From: Leeuwenhoekiella sp. | GTDB lineage: Bacteria; Bacteroidota; Bacteroidia; Flavobacteriales; Flavobacteriaceae | Assembly: GCA_011050015.1 (NCBI GenBank) | Contig: DRGP01000164.1 | Location: 1-35,514, forward strand | Length of the DNA: 35,514 nt | Direction: 5' to 3' | Shown here: piece after piece, positions 1 through 14,245 of the stretch | Numbering within the stretch: the first letter of the stretch is position 1 | Layout of the letters: each line of letters opens with the position of its first letter | Notes under the pieces: model-generated | The model's database searches: none | The model's input: the letters and a program-made list of their open reading frames with translations, nothing else | What the model was told of the DNA's origin: nothing | Made by a program: the position numbers and the translations under genes

Positions 1-107
1 AATGGATTGAAACTTGGTACAACAGAAGAAGAATGCACTCCACCTTGGGGTATAAAACTATAGAGGAATTTGAAATAGAAATGTATAATCAAAATGTAGC
101 AGCATGA
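1..107 (+). CDS. IS3-family transposase (OrfB) C-terminal fragment, runs off left edge
   Basis: Frame 3 reads WIETWYNRRRMHSTLGYKTIEEFEIEMYNQNVAA*, the typical IS3-family OrfB C-terminus (W/Y-N-x-x-R-x-H-S-x-L-G-Y-x-T-P/I-x-E-F). Confidence 0.88.
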   Translation, partial: WIETWYNRRRMHSTLGYKTIEEFEIEMYNQNVAA

Positions 108-118
108 CCCTTATCTAA

Positions 119-1261
119 TTGTCCACTTTTTTGTTGCAAGTCCATAATACAGACATTAAAATAATTGAAAACACAGAAACGACATATGTACAGATAGAGC
201 CAAAACTAAGACTGTACGCTATCACAGGTCAATGTACACAGCCAGGGGCAGATTACATTTGGATAGGGTCAAATATGCAGTACAGAAACAATCGCGATCT
301 GGGTGTGGGAGGTTTCTTCGTCGAAATCAGCGACGAGCCACTGGTGGGCGGTAATCTCAGCACAAGGCTATCGGACATTCAGAAACTCAACAATCAGGTG
401 CAGCAGATCACCGAAGACTTGAACCTTGACCCAACGATAGGCTACGCACTTGATGAAGTTGAAATAGGCACCGCGGAAGTACCCGCGTATATTGTTCGAC
501 CCGATGACTATAACAGTAAGGGGAAAGCTTCTTACCTGCTCATACACATACATGGCAACGGTCAGAACCGTACCAATAATGGCGGCCCCGCGTTCAAACA
601 GTTCTGTAGGGACAATAACATTATGCTTGCCACAATCAACGGGCAGGATCAGAGCAACCCGCCCTTCACTACGACGGCAAGCGGCTGGGGAAATCAAGAG
701 CACTACACACGCTATTTGCGCCTGTACAAATATTGCCAGGACACCTATAATCTGACCGACGAAGTGATATTGACCAGTGGCAGCATGGGCGGTCTGGTTG
801 CCGGTCATTTTGCATATACAAAACCGTTTCCCATAGCATTATGGGTCAATTTTGGGGGGGTACCAAGTTTGTCCAAAATGTTTGAGATTGAGAGTCGCCG
901 CCCCGCCATAAGGAACAGTTACGGCATGGCAGAGGACGGCAGCGATGACGCGAACGTGGCCGATTTCATTCTCGGCTATGACTGGTACGCGATGGGCATG
1001 TTGGACATTGCCGGAACGCCGCACAAGGTAGGTTTTCCACGGGTGTACACCTATGCGGGGCTTTCAGATGGCATCGTTCAATATCAGTTTGGGGGCACAG
1101 GGGAAAATGGTGAAGCCGTGTATCAGCGCTATGTGGCCGCCCTCCAGGCAGCCGGTGGTTTCGCTACCTATACGAGCCGTGCCGATGTGGGGCATGCGGC
1201 CGACGAGCTTATGGACGACGCCGTGAACGACGGAATACTAAGGAAAGAACTAGGAATATAA
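119..1261 (+). CDS. Phage tail-associated alpha/beta hydrolase/esterase, 5' end replaced by IS sequence
   Basis: Hydrolase domain with HIHGNGQN and nucleophile elbow TSGSMGG, preceded by a phage-like N-terminal region. The first ~9 codons of the called ORF lie in the IS terminus, so the native start is lost. Confidence 0.65.
   Translation: MSTFLLQVHNTDIKIIENTETTYVQIEPKLRLYAITGQCTQPGADYIWIGSNMQYRNNRDLGVGGFFVEISDEPLVGGNLSTRLSDIQKLNNQVQQITEDLNLDPTIGYALDEVEIGTAEVPAYIVRPDDYNSKGKASYLLIHIHGNGQNRTNNGGPAFKQFCRDNNIMLATINGQDQSNPPFTTTASGWGNQEHYTRYLRLYKYCQDTYNLTDEVILTSGSMGGLVAGHFAYTKPFPIALWVNFGGVPSLSKMFEIESRRPAIRNSYGMAEDGSDDANVADFILGYDWYAMGMLDIAGTPHKVGFPRVYTYAGLSDGIVQYQFGGTGENGEAVYQRYVAALQAAGGFATYTSRADVGHAADELMDDAVNDGILRKELGI
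120..144 (+). mobile_element. Right terminal inverted repeat of the IS3-family element (tgtccacttttttgttgcaagtcca)
   Basis: Lies 12 bp after the transposase stop; reverse complement TGGACTTGCAACAAAAAAGTGGACA starts with TG as expected for an IS3-family terminus. The left copy is outside the window. Confidence 0.65.
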
Positions 1262-1274
1262 TAAATAAATAAAC

Positions 1275-3038
1275 ATGAAAAAGATAATCACACTTTTAAT
1301 TGCGCTGACCCTGCTAAGCTGCGGCAATCCCACCCCTAACCCCTCCCGAGGGGATGGGGATAAAACCATAGACACGGTGATCCCGCCACCACCCAAACCC
1401 GTGGACAGCGTACCGGTAGTAGACACCATACCACCGCCACCGCCACCGGTCGTAGAAGATACCATAATACCTCAAAAGCCTGTTTATGCGATCTACACGC
1501 TAGATGCGGATGCCTACGGGATCATTCAGGGCAAGGTGACAGATGCGCAGGCACTGGCCAATCGTTACGCTCTGGAGGAAGCTATACAGGACGCTGCCGA
1601 AAAACAGGTGGATACCTTTAAAATCGGTGTTTTTGATGGTTATTTTGATGTTTCTACGGTTACCAGCCAGACGAATAAGAACTTCTACCCGTGGGTTGAA
1701 GGGATCAACATCCCCAGTGATTTTAACCTGGTAATGAGCGATAGTACCTACTTAAGGGTGCAACCAAATAATTCGCCACGGTACTCACTCTTCTCCCTAT
1801 ACTTTTCTGATAACACCTATATAGAAGGTGGACACCTTATAGGGGAGCGCGAGTTTCACACGTGGAGCGGTTCTGGAAGTGACGAATGGGGGCACCTGAT
1901 TGATATCAACAGCTCGCAAAACGTAACTATTAACGGCGTAGAAGCCAAGCGCGGCAACGGTGATGGTTTGGTGGTGCATAGCCGGGAATTTAGCTTTAAG
2001 GAGAATTACGTACCCGCCAAAAATGTGCTTATCATTAACTGCAAAATCATTGAAAACCGCCGCCAAGGTATAAGCATTACCGATGGTCAAGATATAATCG
2101 TTGAGGATAATTATTTTGAAGGTACGGGTACGACAGTTGGTAATTCCGAAGGTACGAATCCGCGCTTTGACATAGATATTGAACCTTACCGAGAGCGAAG
2201 CAAAGAAACCGGGGAGATCATTTGGTATGAATGGGTAGAAAACGTAACCCTTCGCGGAAATAAATCTATAGGCTCCGACAAAGGCTCGTTTATCGTTGCC
2301 GGTGGGAAAAACATACTTATCGAAAATAACCACGTAGCACAAGGCATGGGGAATAAAGCGAGTGAAGGCGTTGTAATAAGGAATAATGTTTGTGAAAATT
2401 ATGACGAAAACTATACCATTCTGCCCGGTATTTTTGCAGGCGACGGAACAGAAGTGTATGGCAACACAATTAACGGGTTTAGTCATTCAGTACATCTAAG
2501 CGGTGAAAATGTGGAATTTCACGATAATGAAGCCAGGGATTTCAGAAGTGCCGGCCTGTACCACCGGTATAATTTGAAAAACTCTAGGATAGAAAACAAT
2601 ACATTCATTAGCAATTCGCCAAAAGCCTATGCAATGTTCTTGCACCTGGCAACCATTGAAAATACAGAAATAATAAATAACACTTTTGAATCGGTTCGCA
2701 GCGCACTTAAGACCGTTTCTGTGAACGAGGGCAACGATTATACGTTTATGATTGAGGATAACGAATTTAAAAGCCGCGATAGGAATACGGTATTCAAAAG
2801 TTCAGGGATCAAATTTGTAGGCAACCATTTTAATAATCAACTCGAGTTCAAGGAATCTACAGATATTGAAGTTGAACAAAACACCATTGAATCCACAACA
2901 GACGCTATCGTCTTCAAAGAGGACGTGGGTACAATTTCTATTATAGGAAACAAGTTGATTACAGGTGGCAAGTGTACCGAAGCAAAATTCGATCCCGCTA
3001 ATCTAATCGAGCACTCCAATGAATGTATTTATCAATAA
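1275..3038 (+). CDS. Prophage-encoded lipoprotein with proline-rich linker and right-handed parallel beta-helix (pectate-lyase-like) domain
   Basis: SPII signal MKKIITLLIALTLLSC-G, then a Pro-rich linker (PPPPKP, PPPPPP), then repeated beta-helix rungs (VTINGVEAKRGNGDG, NVLIINCKIIENRRQG, NILIENNHVAQG). Confidence 0.75.
   Translation: MKKIITLLIALTLLSCGNPTPNPSRGDGDKTIDTVIPPPPKPVDSVPVVDTIPPPPPPVVEDTIIPQKPVYAIYTLDADAYGIIQGKVTDAQALANRYALEEAIQDAAEKQVDTFKIGVFDGYFDVSTVTSQTNKNFYPWVEGINIPSDFNLVMSDSTYLRVQPNNSPRYSLFSLYFSDNTYIEGGHLIGEREFHTWSGSGSDEWGHLIDINSSQNVTINGVEAKRGNGDGLVVHSREFSFKENYVPAKNVLIINCKIIENRRQGISITDGQDIIVEDNYFEGTGTTVGNSEGTNPRFDIDIEPYRERSKETGEIIWYEWVENVTLRGNKSIGSDKGSFIVAGGKNILIENNHVAQGMGNKASEGVVIRNNVCENYDENYTILPGIFAGDGTEVYGNTINGFSHSVHLSGENVEFHDNEARDFRSAGLYHRYNLKNSRIENNTFISNSPKAYAMFLHLATIENTEIINNTFESVRSALKTVSVNEGNDYTFMIEDNEFKSRDRNTVFKSSGIKFVGNHFNNQLEFKESTDIEVEQNTIESTTDAIVFKEDVGTISIIGNKLITGGKCTEAKFDPANLIEHSNECIYQ
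1328..1361. repeat. Palindromic C/G-rich repeat (cccctaacccctcccgaggggatgggg type) embedded in the lipoprotein CDS
   Basis: Sequence tcccacccctaacccctcccgaggggatgggga; same general type as the intergenic palindromes at 3471-3530, 22311-22346 and 31549-31577. Confidence 0.6.
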
Positions 3039-3068
3039 TCATCAATCAATAATCAAAATCGAACAATT

Positions 3069-3470
3069 ATGAAAAAGTTAATGTTAGTAATAGTGGCCCT
3101 GCTTATGGGCAGTAGTGTTTTTGCCCAGGCGCTGTCTCCGGAGATCAACTGGATGGAAATGTTTATTTGGGCCGGTGGCGGTTTGCTTTCCATAGAGAAA
3201 GTGGCGCAGGGGGTTTTACTCATCACACAGGCGCTTAAAAAGCTCACAGGATCTAACGGCACGATTACCTGGGTTATTTCCATCGGGGTCGGCCAGGCTA
3301 TTGCTGTGGTGGGAAAATTGCTATTGTCTGGTATCTTTCTGGATGTGCCATGGGTGGCCGCTCTGGTGCTAGGATTTGCGGGAACGCTGCTGGCCAATGA
3401 AGTATTTACCGTGGAAGAGATCAAAGACTTGTTGAAGCGGAAATTACCGCGTGACGATCAATCAGCATAA
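3069..3470 (+). CDS. Small membrane protein with signal peptide and about 3 TM segments; candidate phage holin
   Basis: Signal peptide MKKLMLVIVALLMGSSVFAQ plus hydrophobic segments, 133 aa, within the late phage module. Confidence 0.45.
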   Translation: MKKLMLVIVALLMGSSVFAQALSPEINWMEMFIWAGGGLLSIEKVAQGVLLITQALKKLTGSNGTITWVISIGVGQAIAVVGKLLLSGIFLDVPWVAALVLGFAGTLLANEVFTVEEIKDLLKRKLPRDDQSA

Positions 3471-3530
3471 ACCACCCCTAGCCCCTTGCCCTCCTCTCCG
3501 TTCCTTCGACGGAGGCAGGAAAGGGAGAGA
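3471..3530. repeat. Intergenic palindromic repeat cluster
   Basis: cacccctagccccttgccctcctctccgttccttcgacggaggcaggaaagggagag; contains inverted arms ctccgt...acggag. Confidence 0.5.
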
Positions 3531-3548
3531 AAAATTTAAAAAACAATT

Positions 3549-6323
3549 ATGACTATTACCGTTTACCGCGCTGCTGACGTACAAGTCTCCCAGTTTGAAA
3601 TAGATGAAGAAACTGTGTTTACCGAGAAGTTTATGGGTGAGCATAAGATTGTCGCGCCATTTATCGCAATTTCTGTGCTGCCTATTCAGATTGGGGATTA
3701 CATCGTGCATGGCGCGGAACGGTTCTATGTCAATGCACCCCCAGGCGTGCAGAAAATCAATAATTTCACCTATGCATACAACATTACTTTTGAGGGCGAA
3801 CGCTACGCCCTGTACAATAAGCTGCTCTTAGATGAAGGCGCAGCAGATTTCAGTTATCATGGGAGCCCGGAGGATCACTTGCTTTTGCTCCTGGAAAATA
3901 TCAACAGCACGCAAGGCGGCTGGACGATCACGGAGGTGGCCGACCTGCCCGCCAAAACATTGACCTACAACGCAGACAGCTGCCGTACCGCACTCACAAA
4001 GATCGCTGAACAGTTTGACCTGGAGTTCCGTATTGCCGGGCGGGCAATTACGATGGTGCGTAGTGTGGGTGTAGAAACAATCATGAGTTTCAGTTATGGC
4101 CGGGGTGCAGGCTTATACAGCCTTACCCGCGATGCTATTGAGGAAAAGAACCTGGTAACGCGGGTATACGGTTTTGGGGGACGTAAGAACCTGAGCTATG
4201 ATTATAGGAATGGTGCGAAGCGTTTGACTTTTGAGGAACGATATATTGATATCAATACAGATATTTATGGTATCAGAGAAGGTGTCGTAACCTTTGATGA
4301 TATCTTTCCGCAGCGCACCGGAACGGTTACAGGGATCAATCCCGAAGACCGGTTTCAGTTTGAAGATGGCGCGATGGAATTTGACCTTAACGAATATCTA
4401 CTGGAAGGTACCGTGGCCAAGGTAGTGTTCAAGACAGGGGCACTGGCCGGTTATGAATTTGAGATTGAACGCTATCGCGATGATGCAAAAGTGTTCAACT
4501 TTCTGGAATTTGCCGAAGAGGATGATTATGTGCTCCCCAATGACCTGAACTTTCCAGAAGTGGGAGATGAATATACACTTGTGGATGTCGGGATGCCTGA
4601 GATCTACACTATAGAAGCAGAGCAGGATGTTAAAGATGGCACTCAAGAATATGCTGAAGAAAATGGCGTACCACGGGTGACGTATGATCTTGATATGGAT
4701 GAAAAGTATGTGCGGGAGACCGGAGCATATGTAGAAGTTGGTTTTATAGTGCGAATTGAGGATACGAATCTCGCAATAGATAACCGTATACGCGTGGCCG
4801 AAGTGAACTATCCGCTGGTGAACCCCGATAAGCGCAAAGCTAAGATTGCCGATACGATCCCTTATACCATCGTGGAGCGCACGATTGCCGATACCATAGA
4901 CAATAAGACCGAAGTGGTGAATGTAGACCGCAGGCGCATTGAACTGGCCAGGCGCAGTGCAAAGCGGTTCCGTGATCTTCAAGGATTGTTGTTTGATGCT
5001 GATGGGTATTTTGATGGCAGCAGGATCAAACCCAATAGTATTGAGACGCTTATGCTTACCGTGGGGGCGAAGTCCCAGAACTTTGGACTTATCGGTGTTA
5101 GCATTGAAGCCAATGCCGGGGGCGATGTGAACGCGATGAACATCAGCGCGGGGCAGCTCGCTCACTACGAGATCGAGATTGAAGGGCTGGGTTACGTGTG
5201 GGACGTGGATGGCGCGATCTTTACCGGCTTGGATCCTGAAAAACCCTACTATGTATATGCAAAATGTGCCAGCACGAGCCTCACGGGCGTGTGGGAGATC
5301 AGCGAAACCCCCAGGCGCACGACTGATGAAGTGGGCTATTACCTGTTTAACCTGGGCGTGCTCTATGCGGTGAATGAAGGCCGCCGCGACTTTGACTTTA
5401 CCAACGGCATGACCTACATCAACGGGGATACGATCACCACCGGCCGGATCAAGAGTCTGGACGGTCTGAACTTCTTTGATCTGGCGCAGGGGAAGTTCAA
5501 AATAGGCAATGAGGAGAGCAGCCTGGACTATAACGTGACCGAAAAAGGCCAGCTCACGCTGAAAGGTGTTCTGGTAAGCTCTATGATTTTTGCCGAGGAT
5601 GCTGTGATTGAAAATCTACTTGTGCGGAATTTGAAAACAAGGGAGAACGGCCGCAGGATTGAGATTACGGAGGCGGGAAATAATTTAATGATGTATGATG
5701 AGGATGGAAATGAGGTGCTGCGCATTGATGATGATATTGAATCTAGTGGTGAACCGCCATACAATGCTATAGGAGGTATCCGCACAAGAAACCCTATCAA
5801 TGACAGGCAGGCGCGAATGACAGCCCGTGGGTACTATGCGGATGGTGCCGGTGTACGCACAAATTATGGTCTTACTTCAGTTGCTGGACGTTTGCTTGAA
5901 AACCAGTATTTGCCTGGTGCCGGTGTGATAGGCACAAATGAGAGCGGAAACGATATTAACTACGGTGTTCGGGCTGTTGGTGGCATGCATGTGGCTGGTG
6001 GCGGCCGCGGGCTACATGTGGAGAATGCGGTTCATTATAACGTCAGGAGTGTTACCACAAGCACGAGCGTAAGAAAAGACGATTACACATTGAGCTGTTA
6101 TAACCAGGTCAATATCGCCGTACTGCTCCCGCCAGACCCTTATAAGGGAAGAATGGTGCTGATACGGAGAAATAACTCATCCAGGATAAGCGCGCAAGGG
6201 AATGGTAATCAGATCCTGCGCCAAGGGTTAAGTAATGAAGTGGATGTAGGTGACGGTGCCGGAGATTGCGGCTTATTTGTTTTTGATGGAAGCTACTGGT
6301 TGTACAACGTCTGGTTTAGATAA
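3549..6323 (+). CDS. Large phage tail protein (tail-associated/endopeptidase-tail-like) with C-terminal receptor/fibre-type region
   Basis: 924 aa; N-terminus resembles phage tail structural proteins, Gly/Asp-rich repetitive C-terminus; sits among other phage late genes. Confidence 0.7.
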   Translation: MTITVYRAADVQVSQFEIDEETVFTEKFMGEHKIVAPFIAISVLPIQIGDYIVHGAERFYVNAPPGVQKINNFTYAYNITFEGERYALYNKLLLDEGAADFSYHGSPEDHLLLLLENINSTQGGWTITEVADLPAKTLTYNADSCRTALTKIAEQFDLEFRIAGRAITMVRSVGVETIMSFSYGRGAGLYSLTRDAIEEKNLVTRVYGFGGRKNLSYDYRNGAKRLTFEERYIDINTDIYGIREGVVTFDDIFPQRTGTVTGINPEDRFQFEDGAMEFDLNEYLLEGTVAKVVFKTGALAGYEFEIERYRDDAKVFNFLEFAEEDDYVLPNDLNFPEVGDEYTLVDVGMPEIYTIEAEQDVKDGTQEYAEENGVPRVTYDLDMDEKYVRETGAYVEVGFIVRIEDTNLAIDNRIRVAEVNYPLVNPDKRKAKIADTIPYTIVERTIADTIDNKTEVVNVDRRRIELARRSAKRFRDLQGLLFDADGYFDGSRIKPNSIETLMLTVGAKSQNFGLIGVSIEANAGGDVNAMNISAGQLAHYEIEIEGLGYVWDVDGAIFTGLDPEKPYYVYAKCASTSLTGVWEISETPRRTTDEVGYYLFNLGVLYAVNEGRRDFDFTNGMTYINGDTITTGRIKSLDGLNFFDLAQGKFKIGNEESSLDYNVTEKGQLTLKGVLVSSMIFAEDAVIENLLVRNLKTRENGRRIEITEAGNNLMMYDEDGNEVLRIDDDIESSGEPPYNAIGGIRTRNPINDRQARMTARGYYADGAGVRTNYGLTSVAGRLLENQYLPGAGVIGTNESGNDINYGVRAVGGMHVAGGGRGLHVENAVHYNVRSVTTSTSVRKDDYTLSCYNQVNIAVLLPPDPYKGRMVLIRRNNSSRISAQGNGNQILRQGLSNEVDVGDGAGDCGLFVFDGSYWLYNVWFR

Positions 6324-6325
6324 AA

Positions 6326-6434
6326 ACCCCCAGCAAGCATTTAAAGATCTCACTCAATTAAATACAAAAATCCACTTGGGACAACTGGGGGCAAGGCCAT
6401 CAGATTCCAAATGGATTTTATTAATTGAGTGAGA
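6326..6434. other. Long imperfect inverted repeat with an interlocking second helix (possible pseudoknotted RNA)
   Basis: Arms 6348-6381 (tctcactcaattaaatacaaaaatccacttggga) and 6406-6434 (tccaaatggattttattaattgagtgaga); CCCCCAG at 6327-6333 is perfectly complementary to CTGGGGG at 6385-6391, which lies in the loop. Confidence 0.55.
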
Positions 6435-6444
6435 CAACAAAGAT

Positions 6445-7272
6445 ATGCTAAAAGACCTAAAAACGCCTATTAGTTACTATGGCGGAAAACAAAATCTCGT
6501 AACTACCATATTACCTTTAATACCAGACCACCGTATCTATACCGAACCCTTTGTGGGAGGTGGTGCCATTTTCTGGTCAAAGCGACCAAGCGATACCGAA
6601 GTCATCAATGACTACAACCGAGAGTTAATCAACTTCTATGAATGTGTGCAAAATGAATTTGTAGAGTTGGAAAAGATGGTGCGCATCAGCCTGCACAGCC
6701 GGTCGCTACACAACGACGCCACTGTGATCTATAACAACCCTCACATGTTTGACAGACTGCGGCGGGCGTGGGCTATCTGGGTGCTGGCCGCGCAGAGCTT
6801 TAGCAGCATGCTTGATGGGTCTTTTGGGTATGACCGGATAGGAACGACTTCAAAGAAAATCCTCAATAAACGCAATGCGTTTACCACGGACATGGCCATA
6901 CGGATGCAGAATGTTCAAGTGGAGTGTACCGATGCCCTGCGCGTGATACGCTCGCGGGATTCAGTTGAGGCCTTTCATTATTGTGACCCGCCCTATTTTA
7001 ACAGCGATTGTGGCCATTACGATGGATATAGTCAGGAAGATTTTGAAAGTCTCTTAGACACGCTTTCAGGCATTCAGGGTAAGTTCTTGATGAGTAGCTA
7101 TCCCAGTGGTGTATTAGAGCGCTATAGTCAAAAGCATGGCTGGTACACGCGAACACTCGAACAAAGCGTGAGTGTGGCCAATGGAACGGGTAAGCCGGGT
7201 AAAAAGAAGATAGAGGTGCTAACGGGCAATTATGATCTGGGGAACCCTAGAGCGGCTTTAAAATTGTTTTAA
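6445..7272 (+). CDS. D12-class DNA N6-adenine methyltransferase (Dam-like), phage-associated
   Basis: ISYYGGKQ, EPFVGGGAIFWSK and DPPYF motifs typical of D12-class N6-adenine MTases. Confidence 0.9.
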   Translation: MLKDLKTPISYYGGKQNLVTTILPLIPDHRIYTEPFVGGGAIFWSKRPSDTEVINDYNRELINFYECVQNEFVELEKMVRISLHSRSLHNDATVIYNNPHMFDRLRRAWAIWVLAAQSFSSMLDGSFGYDRIGTTSKKILNKRNAFTTDMAIRMQNVQVECTDALRVIRSRDSVEAFHYCDPPYFNSDCGHYDGYSQEDFESLLDTLSGIQGKFLMSSYPSGVLERYSQKHGWYTRTLEQSVSVANGTGKPGKKKIEVLTGNYDLGNPRAALKLF

Positions 7273-7283
7273 ACTGCATTTAA

Positions 7284-7323
7284 ATTGTACTTTTCGTTTT
7301 CAGATATTGTACTTTTCGTTTTC
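7284..7323. repeat. Two copies of an 18-bp direct repeat attgtacttttcgttttc, 22-bp period
   Basis: 7284-7301 and 7306-7323 are identical; located between the methylase stop and the tRNA promoter. Confidence 0.85.
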
Positions 7324-7369: not shown

Positions 7370-7443
7370 GGGGATGTAGCTCAGTTGGCTAGAGCGCTTG
7401 ACTGGCAGTCAAGAGGTCGTCGGTTCGAGCCCGATCTTCTCCA
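7370..7443 (+). tRNA. tRNA-Ala (anticodon GGC)
   Basis: GGGGATGTAGCTCAGTTGGCTAGAGCGCTTGACTGGCAGTCAAGAGGTCGTCGGTTCGAGCCCGATCTTCTCCA; anticodon arm CTTGA-CTGGCAG-TCAAG, T-arm GTCGG-TTCGAGC-CCGAT. Confidence 0.95.
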
Positions 7444-7448
7444 CAACT
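7431..7448 (+). repeat. Attachment core at the tRNA side (ccgatcttctccacaact)
   Basis: Identical to 12482-12499; overlaps the tRNA 3' end. Confidence 0.9.
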
Positions 7449-7460
7449 AATTAACAGGAA

Positions 7461-7496
7461 CGCCCTATTTGCGGTATATAGCAGATAGGGCGTTTT
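7461..7496 (+). terminator. Rho-independent terminator after the tRNA, within the element
   Basis: cgccctatttgc ggtatata gcagatagggcg ttttt. Confidence 0.8.
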
Positions 7497-7501
7497 TCAT
7501 T

Positions 7502-7521
7502 TTCCCCACATAGTCCCCACA
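7502..7521 (+). promoter_or_regulatory. Putative integrase arm-type site, left copy (ttccccacatagtccccaca)
   Basis: Identical 20-mer at 12322-12341; each copy contains CCCCACA twice, 11 bp apart. Confidence 0.7.
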
Positions 7522-7652
7522 AAAGGTTAACTGCGGTAATTAACACGAATAGTTGAGGTATATTTTAGTTTGTGTATCGTTTTATGGCTCTAGTGATACG
7601 CAAAATGGTTTGTACTTACCCTGTGATATACAAAACACGTCCGCGGAAAATT

Positions 7653-7946
7653 TTAAAAATGCTCAATTAGTTCATTTAGTAATTCAATAGGCAGAAATAA
7701 ATTAGATGAGGTCTCCAGCTCTTTGCCGTTCTCATCTTCAAGAATTGATAAGATCATTCTAGTATGATCCGAAGCGTAGGCCGCATCCGAAATTTTAAAA
7801 CGGTAATTGCTTAATACCTTATCAACATCATTCGCCTGTATGAATGTCAGGCCGTCTATTGATATGCTAAAGAGGTCATGCGATTCCCAAAATTCTAAGT
7901 TTGTGAATTGATTCATAGGTTTAGTTATTGATACCCCCCCCCTCAT
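7653..7946 (-). CDS. Hypothetical small protein; G9 tract right after the start codon
   Basis: 97-aa ORF co-oriented with the element genes; minus strand starts ATGAGGGGGGGGGTA. An alternative start is the internal Met of MNQFTNLEF. Confidence 0.5.
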   Translation of the reverse strand: MRGGVSITKPMNQFTNLEFWESHDLFSISIDGLTFIQANDVDKVLSNYRFKISDAAYASDHTRMILSILEDENGKELETSSNLFLPIELLNELIEHF

Positions 7947-8026
7947 TTTTTTTCAGTGAATAAAATCATTGCTAAGGGGCGTTGTACGCGTTATTGCTTT
8001 GCTAGTGATTTTACCCCCTATCCCTA

Positions 8027-8929
8027 TTACCATTCTGCATTAAGATATCTTTCAAAATGATTTTCCTTTAGAAGGTGCTGGGGCGTCGCAAACTGATAGT
8101 TTTTATCTTTGTGCCATTTATTCTTACCGCTAAACAAACTTTGCGTAGCCTTTTGGAAGTCCTGCCATTCATAGCCCTGCGCTCTGCGTTCGTTGAATAG
8201 TTTTGTTGTGGCTCTGGTGGGTTTATGGTTCAAAGGTTTATTAATTGGTACTTTAGTATTTTGGCCTTTGTTATTGAATACATCAATAAACCATTGTACT
8301 GCTTTTTCTGAATTAGGATATTCCTTTGCCGGATCAATTTCTAACACTGCCGGTTGGTTTTTAATCCAGTTCCCAGCGAATACCTTAGCACGTGCCAGTA
8401 TCTTATCCGTATCTAGTGGAATAGATTCTAAAACACATTTATTATTAAGATCCGTTTCAAATTTTTGCCAGTTATCTATTTGTGGTTTATAGGTGTCTAT
8501 GAATGAATTATAAACATTTAAATCTTTTTCTTTCAAAAAAGAGAGAGAGCCATATTTATAATCTTTATTAAACTCTTTATTATGTTTAAACTTTCCTTTA
8601 AGAGGGTCTGCAACTTTCTTGTTAGAGGGTCTGCAACTTTCCTTTAAGAGGGTCTTAATGATTCTTTCATTACCCCTGCTCTGAAAATGCTTAATAGTAA
8701 CGCATCCTTTTTTCTCCAGCTCATTTATAATCTGTGATACCCTTGTAAGGCTCAAATTAAATATATCTGAAAAATAGCGGTTGGTTGCAAAGCATCCCTT
8801 TTCGTTATCCAGTGCAGCAATTCGCGCCAAAAATCCCTTTTCGGTAAATGATAGCTGGGTATGGCTCATTATTTCGGGGCTAATCCATATACCGCCTTTG
8901 TCTTTTTCGGGTTCATTTGGTTTACTCAT
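8027..8929 (-). CDS. wHTH replication-initiator/replisome-organiser-like protein
   Basis: N-terminal winged-helix pattern (LSFTEKGFLARIAALDNEKGCFATNRYFSDIFNLSLTRVSQIINELEKKGCVTIKHF) as in phage/plasmid initiators; the gene contains tandem iteron-like repeats. Confidence 0.65.
   Translation of the reverse strand: MSKPNEPEKDKGGIWISPEIMSHTQLSFTEKGFLARIAALDNEKGCFATNRYFSDIFNLSLTRVSQIINELEKKGCVTIKHFQSRGNERIIKTLLKESCRPSNKKVADPLKGKFKHNKEFNKDYKYGSLSFLKEKDLNVYNSFIDTYKPQIDNWQKFETDLNNKCVLESIPLDTDKILARAKVFAGNWIKNQPAVLEIDPAKEYPNSEKAVQWFIDVFNNKGQNTKVPINKPLNHKPTRATTKLFNERRAQGYEWQDFQKATQSLFSGKNKWHKDKNYQFATPQHLLKENHFERYLNAEW
8591..8659. repeat. Three tandem 23-bp repeats (iteron-like) inside the initiator-like gene
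   Basis: Units 8591-8613 ctttcctttaagagggtctgcaa, 8614-8636 ctttcttgttagagggtctgcaa, 8637-8659 ctttcctttaagagggtcttaat; AT-rich tract adjoining at about 8510-8590. Confidence 0.9.
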
Positions 8930-8994
8930 TACAAAGTATGGCTTATCTTTACAGCACGTTGATGCCGTTCGTTAACGTATCATTTGAACAATTA

Positions 8995-9023
8995 AAGGAG
9001 TAGTTTAGGCTACTCCTTTTTTT
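8995..9023 (+). terminator. Hairpin followed by a T-run, overlapping the stop of the 9010-9456 ORF
   Basis: aaggagtag tttagg ctactcctt ttttt. Confidence 0.5.
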
Positions 9024-9456
9024 GTGGTGGTAAATGGTAGGGGTGTTTATCAAGTATCACATTTAGCAGCTGTTTACCATAGGGGTAGTACTTTGGGAAA
9101 TAATCTACTATGGCCGTGGTACGATCTTCTGAAAACTGGATGATGATTAGGCTTTCGGGTTTGTAGTTTCCATTCTTAATAATTCTTTTATTGCCCTCAA
9201 ATACATCTGGTATTCTGGTGGGTCTCAATCCCGTAACCCCTGTGCATTTACTCCATTTGGGATTGTCCTGTATTACAAGCCAGTCAAAAAAGCCTTTTCC
9301 ATTATTGTATTGTCTGTTTCTTTCAATCCTGATGAGGTCTGTAAGTATTTCGCACTCACTTGCCGCACCAATCAATTGATAAAGCTCGTAGGACTTAAAA
9401 GAATTATCCAAAATCCTATATATCCCTCTTATAAATTTCGCTCCGTTCGTTGCCAT
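9010..9456 (-). CDS. Hypothetical protein of the mini-element
   Basis: 148-aa ORF, co-oriented with neighbours; no family recognised. Confidence 0.7.
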   Translation of the reverse strand: MATNGAKFIRGIYRILDNSFKSYELYQLIGAASECEILTDLIRIERNRQYNNGKGFFDWLVIQDNPKWSKCTGVTGLRPTRIPDVFEGNKRIIKNGNYKPESLIIIQFSEDRTTAIVDYFPKYYPYGKQLLNVILDKHPYHLPPQKKE

Positions 9457-9462
9457 ATCATT

Positions 9463-9744
9463 CTACTTATTAGAGTTGAACAATAGAGCGTTGATCTCTT
9501 TGCGGTTGAAATAGGTGCGGTTCCCTACCTTGTAAGGCTTCAAAATACCTTTGTTGCACCAAGCATGTAGGCAAACAAGGCTAATTTTAAGGAGTTTCCC
9601 CGTTTCTTTTCTTGTCAACCATTCGTCAGGCTCTTGTGGCTGGAGTTCTTTGCGCAAAAGGTCTAGTTTACCCTCTATGCCCTGTAAAATGGTTTCGGTT
9701 AATCCCTCTGGAGTAACGTTATTCAATAAAATTGCATCTGCCAT
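9463..9744 (-). CDS. Excisionase/MerR-like helix-turn-helix DNA-binding protein
   Basis: EWLTRKETGKLLKISLVCLHAWCNKGILKPYKVGNRTYFNRKEINALL matches the helix_turn_helix excisionase-family pattern. Confidence 0.88.
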   Translation of the reverse strand: MADAILLNNVTPEGLTETILQGIEGKLDLLRKELQPQEPDEWLTRKETGKLLKISLVCLHAWCNKGILKPYKVGNRTYFNRKEINALLFNSNK

Positions 9745-9839
9745 AATTCTTTGTTTTTAGATTATGGTCAAATGTATTTCGGTATGCAATCAAACTTAGC
9801 TCAAAGAAACTCAATAACGAACGCAATAATTATGAGCTA

Positions 9840-10580
9840 TTATCTAGCCTTGTATAGTTCGTTGATTTGCTTATCTAAATCGGGATAGCTGTGTGTATCT
9901 TTATTAGCCAATCTTTGAAAATCCGTTCCTTTTAATCCTTCTCTACAATACTCCCTTACAAATTCCCTGTAAGCCTTGGTGGTACACTTGATTTTAGGGC
10001 GTAAGCAATCATAGATCAACGTATATTTTACTGTGGGGGCATCATCTGCCAAATGGAAATTATCGTTTAAATAATCAAAAGATTCTAAACCGTCATTGAT
10101 AAAAATATGGTTGTATTTTGCTTTTTGTAGTTCACTGGTAGAATTACTGATAATGCTAACCTCAACATCATTCCTAGGGTTATATTCATTTTTTATCATC
10201 CACTCGATCAAACGTACCTTAATGATGTTTTGAAGCACCCTAAGACCTTTACTTTCATCATCGAGTAGATTATACCCAATTGCAAGCTCTAAAAACTTGT
10301 CAGGATCAATTTTAATCCCATCATCTTCAATTGTAGCGGTTTTAAAATACGCCTTGTTAAATTCTAGATCAATTATTGCTTTATGGCGTAGGTTTGTCAA
10401 TTCGTGCCTTACCGCATCCATTGTTATATGAAGCGATACACTCGAATGTATTTCGTCACGTTCCGTTATCACATAGATGTTGAGGTAATGCAAAAAACGC
10501 CCTCTTATTTCCTCTATTTCTTTCTTTTCTTGATCACTAACTATTAACATGCGTTGCCCCCGTTCGTTTTGTATTTTCAT
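9840..10580 (-). CDS. Hypothetical protein of the mini-element
   Basis: 246-aa ORF, co-oriented with neighbours; no family recognised. Confidence 0.75.
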   Translation of the reverse strand: MKIQNERGQRMLIVSDQEKKEIEEIRGRFLHYLNIYVITERDEIHSSVSLHITMDAVRHELTNLRHKAIIDLEFNKAYFKTATIEDDGIKIDPDKFLELAIGYNLLDDESKGLRVLQNIIKVRLIEWMIKNEYNPRNDVEVSIISNSTSELQKAKYNHIFINDGLESFDYLNDNFHLADDAPTVKYTLIYDCLRPKIKCTTKAYREFVREYCREGLKGTDFQRLANKDTHSYPDLDKQINELYKAR

Positions 10581-10602
10581 TTGAACAATGATTTAAGGAG
10601 TT

Positions 10603-10947
10603 TTAAGCAACGTACAGTTGATCTTTAAACTCATGGTAGCCCTCAAACATTTTAATGCCGTGGATAATCTCTATTTGATTGTTGAGGTAATCAAATGCCA
10701 GTTGTCGCGTTTCAAAATTTGGCAATATTCTAAAATAGGCCATTGCAAATCCCATGTAATTGGTAAGGTCTTTGGTTTCCGTTTCTTCAATAGCCGTTTC
10801 AAATGCTTCAAAACTTTCAAACATTTTAATGCCGTGGATAATCTCTATTTGATTGTTGAGGTAATTGAACGCCTGGGCTTTGTTCATGGTCTTTAAAAGG
10901 TTGTAGTATGCCTTTAAAAATCCGTCATGTGTGGTCAATAGATTCAT
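10603..10947 (-). CDS. Hypothetical protein made of two tandem ~58-aa repeats
   Basis: YLNNQIEIIHGIKMFE occurs twice in 114 aa; DNA identity over 49 bp. Confidence 0.75.
   Translation of the reverse strand: MNLLTTHDGFLKAYYNLLKTMNKAQAFNYLNNQIEIIHGIKMFESFEAFETAIEETETKDLTNYMGFAMAYFRILPNFETRQLAFDYLNNQIEIIHGIKMFEGYHEFKDQLYVA
10643..10865. repeat. Identical 49-bp direct repeats, 174 bp apart
   Basis: tcaaacattttaatgccgtggataatctctatttgattgttgaggtaat at 10643-10691 and 10817-10865. Confidence 0.95.
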
Positions 10948-10959
10948 AGTGAGTAGTAT

Positions 10960-12273
10960 TTAATTAGTTCCTGTTTTTACTGGTTTCAATACGGCCTTTT
11001 TATCCCGTTTTATCTCTTGGGTCTCCCAAAAGCTATTTAATACTTTGGCGTTGTCCTGTGCGGTCTTGCGTATGTAGTTCAAAAACATCTTTTCCGTGGT
11101 GTGGCCAGTTATTGCCATGAGTACGGGCGTGGGCAATTTGCCGTAATGGTTTGTGGCAAAAGAACGCCTACAAATGTGGGTGCTAACAAGCTCCCATTTT
11201 TCAAAAGTCCCTTTTTGCTTGCGCCACACACCTTTTTTTAATTTGGTGGTTTTCGCACCGTCTAGGAGTTCCGTAAAGCCTACGGTTTGGCAAACGGTCT
11301 TAATGTAATCATTGAATTTTTGCGTTGAGGTTGCCCGTGGGAAATTGCCCCCGTGCTTCTCTAGGATCGCCTTTACCTGTGGGTGCAAAGGCAGGATTAT
11401 TTTTTGCCCCGTCTTTTGGGCGGTGTATTCAATAAAGCCGTTATTGACATTTTCAGCGGTAAAGGATAAAAGGTCTCCAGCACGTGCGCCACTCCATACG
11501 CCTATGATTAGCCAATCCCTTGCATTATCCAAATAGGGCGTTTTGGTAAAGTCATAATCAAATACCCTATTGATTTCGGACGGGTTGAGCGTTACAAAGG
11601 TGGTTTTTTCCTTTGGTGGCCTAAACTCCGATTTTTCAATATCAATGCTTACTTTGATCCCGTTGCGTTTGGCTTCTTTGACAATGGTTTTTATAAAAGT
11701 CAGGTATTTCCCTATGGTGTTATAGCTAAGTAGATCAACCTCGTGAAAGTATTTGATAAACTCTTTGTGAAATTTCAGATCCACCTCAACAACTCGAAGC
11801 CTTTTCTTTTTATGCTTTTCAAACTGTTTTAGTTTGTTGATTATGGTGGAGTATTTCCTAATGGTGGCCTGTGATACTCCTATTTTGCCGTTAGCCTGTA
11901 TTTTGTGGTGCTGGTTGGCTTTGTGGTATTCTGCAAAATCGATCAAGAAATTTAAATCGGTCTCACTGTTTTGATTGAAGTAGGCAGTTATACCGTCTTT
12001 GAGCCATTCAGAATTGATTAACTCGCCTTTGGTGTACTTATCATTGAATTTATTGAGAATATCATTGCTAAGGCCGTTGAGGTCATTTTGAAGATTCTTT
12101 TTATCGGCAAACGTAGAAATTTGTTTTACCGATCCCTTTTTATTGTTCCAGTAGGTAGGATCAACAAGTAGAGCAGTGGATTTTGTAAAATCGTATTTGC
12201 GCCCGTGCTTAAATCGTAGGTATATGGTGCTGGGGTTTCCAGTGCCTTTTGTGAAGTACTTTAGAGTTGCCAT
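10960..12273 (-). CDS. int: Tyrosine recombinase/phage integrase
   Basis: Catalytic pattern SGARAGD (R), HICRRSF (HxxR), GHTTEKMFLNY (H...Y); SAM-like N-terminal domain; located next to attR. Confidence 0.95.
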   Translation of the reverse strand: MATLKYFTKGTGNPSTIYLRFKHGRKYDFTKSTALLVDPTYWNNKKGSVKQISTFADKKNLQNDLNGLSNDILNKFNDKYTKGELINSEWLKDGITAYFNQNSETDLNFLIDFAEYHKANQHHKIQANGKIGVSQATIRKYSTIINKLKQFEKHKKKRLRVVEVDLKFHKEFIKYFHEVDLLSYNTIGKYLTFIKTIVKEAKRNGIKVSIDIEKSEFRPPKEKTTFVTLNPSEINRVFDYDFTKTPYLDNARDWLIIGVWSGARAGDLLSFTAENVNNGFIEYTAQKTGQKIILPLHPQVKAILEKHGGNFPRATSTQKFNDYIKTVCQTVGFTELLDGAKTTKLKKGVWRKQKGTFEKWELVSTHICRRSFATNHYGKLPTPVLMAITGHTTEKMFLNYIRKTAQDNAKVLNSFWETQEIKRDKKAVLKPVKTGTN

Positions 12274-12321
12274 TTGTAATAATCATTTTGAACACTTCAA
12301 AAATAACCTTTTCTGGCAATC

Positions 12322-12341
12322 TTCCCCACATAGTCCCCACA
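12322..12341 (+). promoter_or_regulatory. Putative integrase arm-type site, right copy (ttccccacatagtccccaca)
   Basis: Identical and same orientation as 7502-7521. Confidence 0.7.
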
Positions 12342-12481
12342 TTTTTAGTATTCGTTCTAATTTTATCTAATCTATACTAATCCCTATACAGTTTGGAATA
12401 ACCCGTAAACACTAAGAAATACAAGTGCTAAGACTATTTTAAGAGGATTTAAACAACAATCTAAATTAACAGGGTTGGGTT

Positions 12482-12499
12482 CCGATCTTCTCCACAACT
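12482..12499 (+). repeat. Attachment core at the distal side (ccgatcttctccacaact)
   Basis: Duplicate of the tRNA-Ala 3' end. Confidence 0.9.
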
Positions 12500-12796: not shown

Positions 12797-14245
12797 ATGA
12801 ACGAAAAACAGTTAAAAAATCTAGTGTTAGAACTTACGGGGCAACCTAAAGAATGTGAATGGATTGAATTCAAAAAGAACAATTCTGATCCTGTTGAAAT
12901 AGGTAAAAGAATATCTGCATTATCCAATGGAGCCTGTATTCATAATCAAGATTATGGCTATTTAGTCTATGGTGTAGAGGATGATTCACATAAAATTGTG
13001 GGGTCTTCTTTCAAATGTAAACTTCAGAAAAAAGGAAATGAAGAATTAGAACATTGGCTCATTCAGCGCCTTAATCCGAGAATAGATTTTACAATCAAGC
13101 AAATAAATATTGAAGATAAAAATATTTGTATTTTCATTATTCCCTCAGCGCACAATCAACCTGTGGAATTTACACATAAGGCCTATGTTAGAATAGGAAG
13201 CATCACAAGGGAGTTAAGTGAGTTTCCAGAAAAGGCCAGAAAAATTTGGAAAAAGGGAAACTCTAAAGTTTTTGAACTACGCATTGCGCAAGAATCGATT
13301 TCTGGCTCGGACATCGTTGAATTATTATCAACACAGACTTATTTTGAACTTTTAAATATTCCATATCCTTCAAGTAGAGATGGGGTATTAAAAAAATTTG
13401 TGTCTGAGGATTTTATCATTAAAAACAAATCGAAATATCACATAACAAATTTAGGAGCAATTCTTTTAGCGAAGGATTTGAATAATTTTTCAGAACTCAA
13501 AAGGAAAGCAATTCGTGCAATTGTATATGATGGAAATAATAAACTAAATACAATCAGGGAACAAATTGGAGTTAGAGGATATGCTGTTGGTTTCGAAGGA
13601 TTAGTAAATTGGGTAAATAGTCAACTTCCGGCTAATGAGGTGATTGGTAAAGCTCTTAGAGATAATGTGCGTATGTATCCTGAAATTGCGATTAGGGAAC
13701 TAATAGCAAATATGATCATACATCAAGATTTTGAAGAGAAAGGTTTTCCAATGGTTGAAATTTATAGTGATAGAATTGAAATCACTAATCCTGGATTGGC
13801 AATGATTACTCCGAATAGATTCATTGATGAATATCTATCTCGAAATGAAAAATTAGCTGATATCATGCGGCGTTTCAGAATATGTGAAGAAAAAGGCAGT
13901 GGCATTGATAAAGTAATTGCTTTTACAGAACATTATCAATTACCCGCGCCTAACTTTTTAATACAAGAAAAACATACAAAAACCATAATGTATTCTTATC
14001 AGTCTTTTAATGATATGGAAAAGAATGATAAAATTCGTGCATGTTACCAACACGCCTGTTTAAAGTATGTTACAAACGAAAAAATGACAAATCAAAGTCT
14101 GCGCGAAAGATTTAAGATTGAGTCTAAGAATGCTGCAATTATATCACGAGTTATAAGAGATACGTTAGAAGAGAGCCTTATAAAAGATGATGATCCTTCT
14201 ACCAAATCTCGAAAATACGCAAAATATATACCTTTTTGGGCTTAA
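12797..14245 (+). CDS. Schlafen/AlbA_2-domain protein with divergent AAA_4/HATPase-like domain (putative transcriptional regulator type)
   Basis: ECEWIEFKKNNSDPVEIGKRISALSNGA...YLVYGVEDD and RELIANMIIHQDFEEKG...VEIYSDRIEITNPG motifs. Confidence 0.85.
   Translation: MNEKQLKNLVLELTGQPKECEWIEFKKNNSDPVEIGKRISALSNGACIHNQDYGYLVYGVEDDSHKIVGSSFKCKLQKKGNEELEHWLIQRLNPRIDFTIKQINIEDKNICIFIIPSAHNQPVEFTHKAYVRIGSITRELSEFPEKARKIWKKGNSKVFELRIAQESISGSDIVELLSTQTYFELLNIPYPSSRDGVLKKFVSEDFIIKNKSKYHITNLGAILLAKDLNNFSELKRKAIRAIVYDGNNKLNTIREQIGVRGYAVGFEGLVNWVNSQLPANEVIGKALRDNVRMYPEIAIRELIANMIIHQDFEEKGFPMVEIYSDRIEITNPGLAMITPNRFIDEYLSRNEKLADIMRRFRICEEKGSGIDKVIAFTEHYQLPAPNFLIQEKHTKTIMYSYQSFNDMEKNDKIRACYQHACLKYVTNEKMTNQSLRERFKIESKNAAIISRVIRDTLEESLIKDDDPSTKSRKYAKYIPFWA

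Follow-up and report, generated by a model that had tools for sequence, protein, structure and literature searches.

Origins inside initiator genes and in small integrated elements

An origin of replication inside the gene of its own initiator is textbook knowledge for bacteriophage lambda. In lambda O the iterons are followed by an AT-rich tract containing ATTACAAAAG, and the P gene lies beside O. In the model of this origin given in a review (PMC5043065), the initiator bound to the iterons distorts the DNA and opens the AT-rich neighbor; the same source describes the lambda repeats as inverted. Two groups of small integrated elements also carry replication genes. PICI possess int, xis, their own initiator and iterons; their origins lie 3' of rep, consist of two iteron sets around an AT-rich region, and use a primase (PMC6092414). 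PICMI of the Vibrionaceae are about 6 kb long and encode an integrase, an HTH_17/AlpA protein and one replication protein, with no capsid genes (PMC10803314).

The DNA described here (the window) is a 35,514-nucleotide stretch from Leeuwenhoekiella sp. that contains a 5.07-kb element integrated in a tRNA-Ala gene. Positions 8509-8657 are very probably the replication origin of this element, located inside the gene of its own initiator and working by the mechanism proposed below. The best reading of the sequence is an O-type intragenic origin that would work like ori-lambda without its initiator belonging to the lambda O Pfam family. As in lambda, iterons lie in the initiator gene between the N- and C-terminal domains, and the AT-rich tract adjoins them on the C-terminal side. 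Among homologues of the window protein the array position is kept while the amino acids drift. The window units are direct repeats of 23 bp, unlike those described for lambda, and no P gene is found next to the initiator; P-like loader genes are present beside homologues in phages and prophages.

The element resembles PICI in being small and integrated and in possessing int, xis, an initiator and iterons, but it has a single in-gene array and no primase match. It shares with PICMI the set of integrase, HTH_17/AlpA and single replication protein, likewise with no capsid genes. PICMI integrate at fis and encode a primase, whereas this element targets tRNA-Ala and encodes an O-type initiator; no Pfam match to the DUF3987/DUF5906 primase domain is present in it.

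The 5.07-kb element

The element lies between the attachment repeats at 7431-7448 and 12482-12499. Its features in window coordinates are as follows.

7370-7444, plus strand: tRNA-Ala(ggc), the integration target
7431-7448, plus strand: attachment core, left copy, 18 bp, CCGATCTTCTCCACAACT, at the 3' end of tRNA-Ala(ggc)
7502-7521, no strand given: repeat TTCCCCACATAGTCCCCACA, putative integrase arm site, with a similar motif in L031
7653-7946, minus strand: gene for a 97-aa protein that is conserved in the sister element, located downstream of the initiator
8027-8929, minus strand: O/DnaD-like replication initiator gene, 300 aa (PHROG 2880/270/428, Pfam HTH_36, AlphaFold, Foldseek)
8509-8588, minus strand: 80 bp of low stability and high AT content, proposed to unwind, with AATAAAGA repeats (AT content, duplex stability, AT maximum 3' of homologue arrays)
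8589-8611, minus strand: iteron 3 (TRF, pairwise unit comparison)
8612-8634, minus strand: iteron 2 (TRF, pairwise unit comparison)
8635-8657, minus strand: iteron 1, 5' in the direction of the gene (TRF, pairwise unit comparison)
9010-9456, minus strand: 148-aa conserved element protein, chassis gene
9463-9744, minus strand: HTH_17 excisionase/AlpA-like protein (Pfam HTH_17 2.5e-10, PHROG excisionases)
9840-10580, minus strand: 246-aa conserved element protein, chassis gene
10603-10947, minus strand: 114-aa protein with one motif in two copies, chassis gene
10960-12273, minus strand: tyrosine integrase (Pfam Phage_int_SAM_5, PHROG 216)
12322-12341, no strand given: second copy of the putative integrase arm repeat
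12482-12499, plus strand: attachment core, right copy

In the congener G407 the tRNA-Ala gene lies directly before hemH, which in the window lies to the right of the element, so that G407 presents the empty integration site. Together with the 18-bp repeat, this bears out the sequence-only reading of a small tRNA-integrated element. Each end of the related element L031 has two copies of the motif GTCCCCACATA, which resembles the putative arm repeat. In the window element every gene is open and both attachment repeats are intact. Searches of 7431-12499 against Pfam and PHROG recognized no helicase or P-like loader gene, and the same databases gave no terminase gene, par gene or primase match in the element. 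It carries no structural genes.

An element without structural genes could be a phage satellite, and satellites need packaging sites, so that the array might instead serve in cis for packaging or partition. This is highly improbable since complete phages show the same array position inside the initiator gene and the 5 kb yielded neither a terminase nor a par gene.

Several further features lie around the element. Left of tRNA-Ala, window 1-7272 encodes a phage tail protein (Prophage_tail), possible lysis genes and a Dam-type methylase; because the contig starts at window 1, this region looks like the end of a separate prophage, which is a possible helper. Just left of tRNA-Ala (window 7284-7323) the 18-bp repeat ATTGTACTTTTCGTTTTC occurs twice, 22 bp apart. 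Between the right end of the element and hemH lies a Schlafen/AlbA_2 plus HATPase_c_4 gene (window 12797-14245) that is not found at the corresponding place in G407 and may be a second insertion.

The iteron array and the AT-rich tract

The strongest tandem repeat of the 35.5-kb window is found at 8589-8655 (TRF period 23, 2.9 copies, score 113); the second-best array scores 55, about half as much. Three direct 23-bp units span 8589-8657 within the initiator-like gene and read, on the minus strand, TAAGACCCTCTTAAAGGAAAGTT, GCAGACCCTCTAACAAGAAAGTT and GCAGACCCTCTTAAAGGAAAGTT. The three tandem units had been proposed from the sequence with an identity of 20/23 or better, which is correct for two of the pairs (20 and 21 of 23) and slightly generous for the middle unit, which takes part in a pair with 18 of 23. 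No further comparable copy of the unit occurs in the window.

The units start at codon phases 2, 1 and 0, so that each is translated in a different frame, as had been noted. The self-match score of the array is 26, compared to a maximum of 15 both in 1000 codon shuffles and in 1000 synonymous permutations encoding an unaltered protein. Since none of the 1000 protein-preserving permutations reaches the score, the repeat is kept as DNA, and the earlier claim to this effect stands.

An AT-rich stretch had been reported at about 8510-8590. The tract 8509-8588, which abuts the array on the side coding for the C-terminal domain, is approximately 81% AT versus 64% for the gene and 58% for the window, and, ranked by low duplex stability, the 80 bp from 8509 reach the 99.99th percentile of the window. 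The tract is proposed to unwind.

The initiator

The 8027-8929 product matches PHROG replication-initiation families (2880 at 1.2e-13, 270 at 3.8e-10 and 428 at 3e-8), in agreement with its first description as initiator-like. Pfam returns HTH_36 plus weak matches; the N-terminal winged helix combined with the PHROG 270/2880 match places the protein with the HTH_36 phage initiators. AlphaFold predicts a winged-helix domain at residues ~18-95 (pLDDT mostly >90), a disordered linker (pLDDT <50 at residues 105-127), which is lysine-rich, and a helical C-terminal domain at residues ~135-267. The iterons encode residues 92-113 and the AT tract encodes the residues after them, which together form the linker region. 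In Foldseek, domains of DnaD and Rep initiators appear alongside MarR-like proteins among the top matches, at weak E-values. A PDB sequence search returned only general winged-helix regulators.

The sequence-only reading called the arrangement lambda-O-style, and this applies to the layout and not to membership of the lambda O family. Both lambda O and the window protein match PHROG 678 (O-like), at 1.7e-35 and 2.4e-5, respectively, whereas Phage_rep_O (PF04492) matches lambda O (5.7e-36) and not the window protein. A profile comparison of the two proteins with hhalign was not significant.

The N-terminal domain belongs to the same family as that of HTH_36/DnaD-like phage initiators (PHROG 270, 2880, 428 and 19658; e.g., those of Pseudomonas phage Skulduggery and Lactobacillus phage c5), which have 22-24-bp arrays at the same in-gene position and an AT tract behind. 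These phages carry a DnaC-like or helicase gene beside the initiator, whereas the 5-kb element does not.

Conservation of the layout among homologues

Relatives of the initiator were found by six-frame genome searches, by tblastn in phages and by secondary queries that included IMG/VR. Scans of genome contigs and viral contigs with the window protein alone as query returned no relatives, and the mixed homologue alignment contained no conserved patch usable for a viral scan. The homologue set comprises 121 dereplicated genes, 116 of which encode at least 180 aa (full-length), and the final array count was restricted to full-length genes and periods of 20-24 bp. In-gene arrays are present in 84 of these 116 genes, a count that, like the others given here, describes breadth and not probability since related genes are not independent data points. 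The full-length homologues come from Flavobacteriaceae, from phages of Pseudomonas, Lactobacillus, Enterococcus, Lysinibacillus and Oceanospirillum, and from IMG/VR; the phages HU1, c5, GJ44, LspM-01, Skulduggery, B1578 and Cruim01 are examples with an array. A gene for a helicase or a DnaC-like loader comes after the initiator in HU1 and Skulduggery, and two flavobacterial prophages (L030 and L032) carry the same initiator type followed by a DnaB helicase gene.

The arrays lie at about codon 80-140, right behind the winged-helix domain, and their first bases fall between about codons 78 and 138. It had been predicted that homologues would keep the repeats as nucleotides while the linker drifts, and this is what homologues of ~20-35% identity show: the array stays in place and is followed by an AT-rich tract while the units are clade-specific and the encoded linker varies. 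For example, L002, L003 and L004 (~30-34% identity) have arrays of 22, 23 and 21 bp, respectively, at the same place with different units. A repeat score of at least 14 is found in 90 of the 121 genes, whereas any of 30 codon shuffles scores that high in only 5% of genes, and in 78 of the 84 array genes the repeat score exceeds that of each of 40 permutations preserving the protein.

A repeat in a disordered, lysine-rich linker could be a coincidence of low complexity or be selected in the protein, and the 21-bp period of L004 is indeed in frame and encodes TPSENRQ repeats. However, the period is not a multiple of three in 71 of the 84 arrays, and for the window this explanation is refuted by the three codon phases and by the synonymous permutations, leaving it a negligible probability.

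In 82% of homologues the most AT-rich 50 nt of the gene directly follow the array on its 3' side (14.5% expected). This bears on the proposal that the iterons are an operator through which the protein represses its own or a neighboring promoter, since autoregulation is conceivable for a winged-helix protein whose gene contains its sites. The position of the AT maximum argues against an operator, as does the start of the array ~270 nt into the gene and not at a promoter. Furthermore, the homologues match replication-initiator families and neighbor helicase genes, and related elements with other initiators have 22-23-bp arrays and AT-rich DNA right after the stop codon. An operator is therefore very unlikely, and an origin is the preferred reading.

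The AT-rich segment behind homologue arrays often contains AATAATACA repeats. Within 110 nt after the array, AATACA was observed 134 times versus 42.8 expected from synonymous permutation. The Thr codon is ACA in 160 of 173 cases in the NNT motif compared to 444 of 1455 elsewhere, and in GC-rich genes the corresponding values are 45 of 47 and 19 of 291. The comparison of homologues suggests that iterons and AT-rich tract are both under constraint at the DNA level, and the AATAATACA repeats are a candidate for a conserved unwinding motif. The tract of the window has AATAAAGA and not the AATAATACA common among homologues, which counts against the origin reading.

The AATAATACA repeats 3' of the arrays (e.g., in L069, L071 and L002) encode NNTxxNNT, and the ACA/AAT bias is seen even in GC-rich Pseudomonas phages. 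The DnaD recognition element consists of 5'-TnnT pairs (PMC10201434); the AATAATACA tract resembles it, with TnnT being too loose a match in AT-rich DNA.

Arrays are absent from the short one-domain homologues L005-L015, from phages LE1 and SE-1, from one IMG/VR clade (L083, L084, L088-L090 and L092) and from Polaribacter L231, a full-length two-domain homologue (27% identity) on the same chassis as the window element. Christiangramia L234, also two-domain and on this chassis, has only degenerate ACCC...GAAAA units in the linker, of which a single one exceeds the 99% null. Apart from L005-L015, these cases count against the origin reading. The idea of a universal iteron core (CCCY...GAAAA or AAAA) was rejected, as it fits 40 of the 84 arrays and the others have clade-specific units. 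The idea that short one-domain homologues always have iterons behind the stop codon was rejected for L005-L015; iterons in that position were found only in several elements on the integrase chassis of the window element.

A chassis family of small tRNA-integrated elements

Searches with the 148-aa protein and the integrase identified elements with the gene order of the window element in tRNA-Leu and tRNA-Ala genes of other Flavobacteriaceae. In Planktosalinus lacus (L031/L230) the array lies in the gene. A sister element in a second congener, G408, has an integrase 79% and an HTH_17 protein 87% identical to those of the window, but at the place of the initiator it has another winged-helix initiator, of 133 aa (PHROG 11233), with no array. 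In G098, G155 and G120 the same chassis carries other initiators or initiator-like proteins; 22-23-bp arrays begin no more than a few dozen bases past the stop codon, and AT-rich DNA lies behind the array where sequence remains. Since a shared chassis carries other initiators and arrays, the replication module appears to be exchangeable across a constant integrase chassis, with the origin inside the initiator gene or next to its end.

The elements L053:14321-18705, L031:249-8044, L225:3967-8522, L226:4397-9145 and L227:4441-14080 share one integrase/HTH_17 chassis and differ in their replication initiators, and most have the 148-aa protein. No relaxase was recognized in these five elements and no structural genes were seen in four of them, the exception being the 7.8-kb Planktosalinus element L031. 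There the initiator has as neighbors (L031:829-3210) a tail tape-measure-like protein of 793 aa and an HNH endonuclease, which hints at a lifestyle related to phages. L224:4835-4999 contains seven 23-bp direct repeats right behind a 238-aa protein on the element chassis, with the contig ending inside the array. At L033:6268-9298 an integrated element combines a DUF5712 protein, which may be relaxase-like, with a short relative of the initiator that lacks iterons. Neither a helper nor a packaging site or transfer function came to light for the chassis elements, and that they are satellites is a guess.

The intragenic origin might be genuine by descent and no longer fire, the element being a decaying remnant with few genes, no helicase gene and only three units. 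This is unlikely, and it is the most serious of the alternatives. Against it, the element genes are all open with both attachment repeats intact, and in other genera 4.4-9.6-kb relatives that share the chassis are found in tRNA genes.

Proposed mechanism of replication

The lambda origin offers the simplest model. In the functional origin that we favor, the integrase and the HTH_17 protein would first excise the element. The winged-helix N-terminal domain would then bind the three iterons, and since one unit corresponds to ~2.2 helical turns the sites would lie on roughly the same face of the DNA. The assembled nucleoprotein would open the adjoining AT-rich tract, and the helical C-terminal domain would bring in the replicative helicase, allowing replication. 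As the element has no recognizable helicase or loader gene, the helicase presumably comes from the host or a helper. The iterons and AT tract lie in or next to the sequence for a disordered linker, where the encoded amino acids matter little, so that gene and origin can travel as one cassette.

Implications

Since this kind of origin is known, the novelty lies in its occurrence outside the lambda O family and in a family of minimal elements, and in how widespread the layout and its two DNA parts are. In open-licence papers nothing direct was found on intragenic iteron origins in this initiator type or on Bacteroidota satellites; older lactococcal and streptococcal phage-origin papers were outside this scope, and parts of the general pattern may have been described before. 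The comparison suggests that, beyond the lambda O family, a broad class of phage and satellite initiators, most of them unannotated, has its origin within the gene as a rule.

A wider reading is offered tentatively, as a possibility slightly harder to accept than to doubt. The window element may be a member of an undescribed family of ~4.4-9.6-kb tRNA-integrated elements of Flavobacteriaceae, in which a fixed chassis (integrase, 114-aa, 246-aa, HTH_17 and 148-aa proteins) takes interchangeable replication cassettes. The origin would lie at or directly behind the DNA-binding part of the initiator, whether or not a reading frame runs through it, and its grammar (iterons of 21-24 bp followed by AATAATACA-type repeats, in the interdomain linker) would be common to O/DnaD-like initiators across phages from three or more phyla and readable from sequence alone.

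The element raises the question of how 5 kb without a recognizable helicase loader recruits a helicase, and it is a candidate portable minimal replicon for Flavobacteriaceae. If the pattern is general, the origins of uncultured phages could be located from their sequences.
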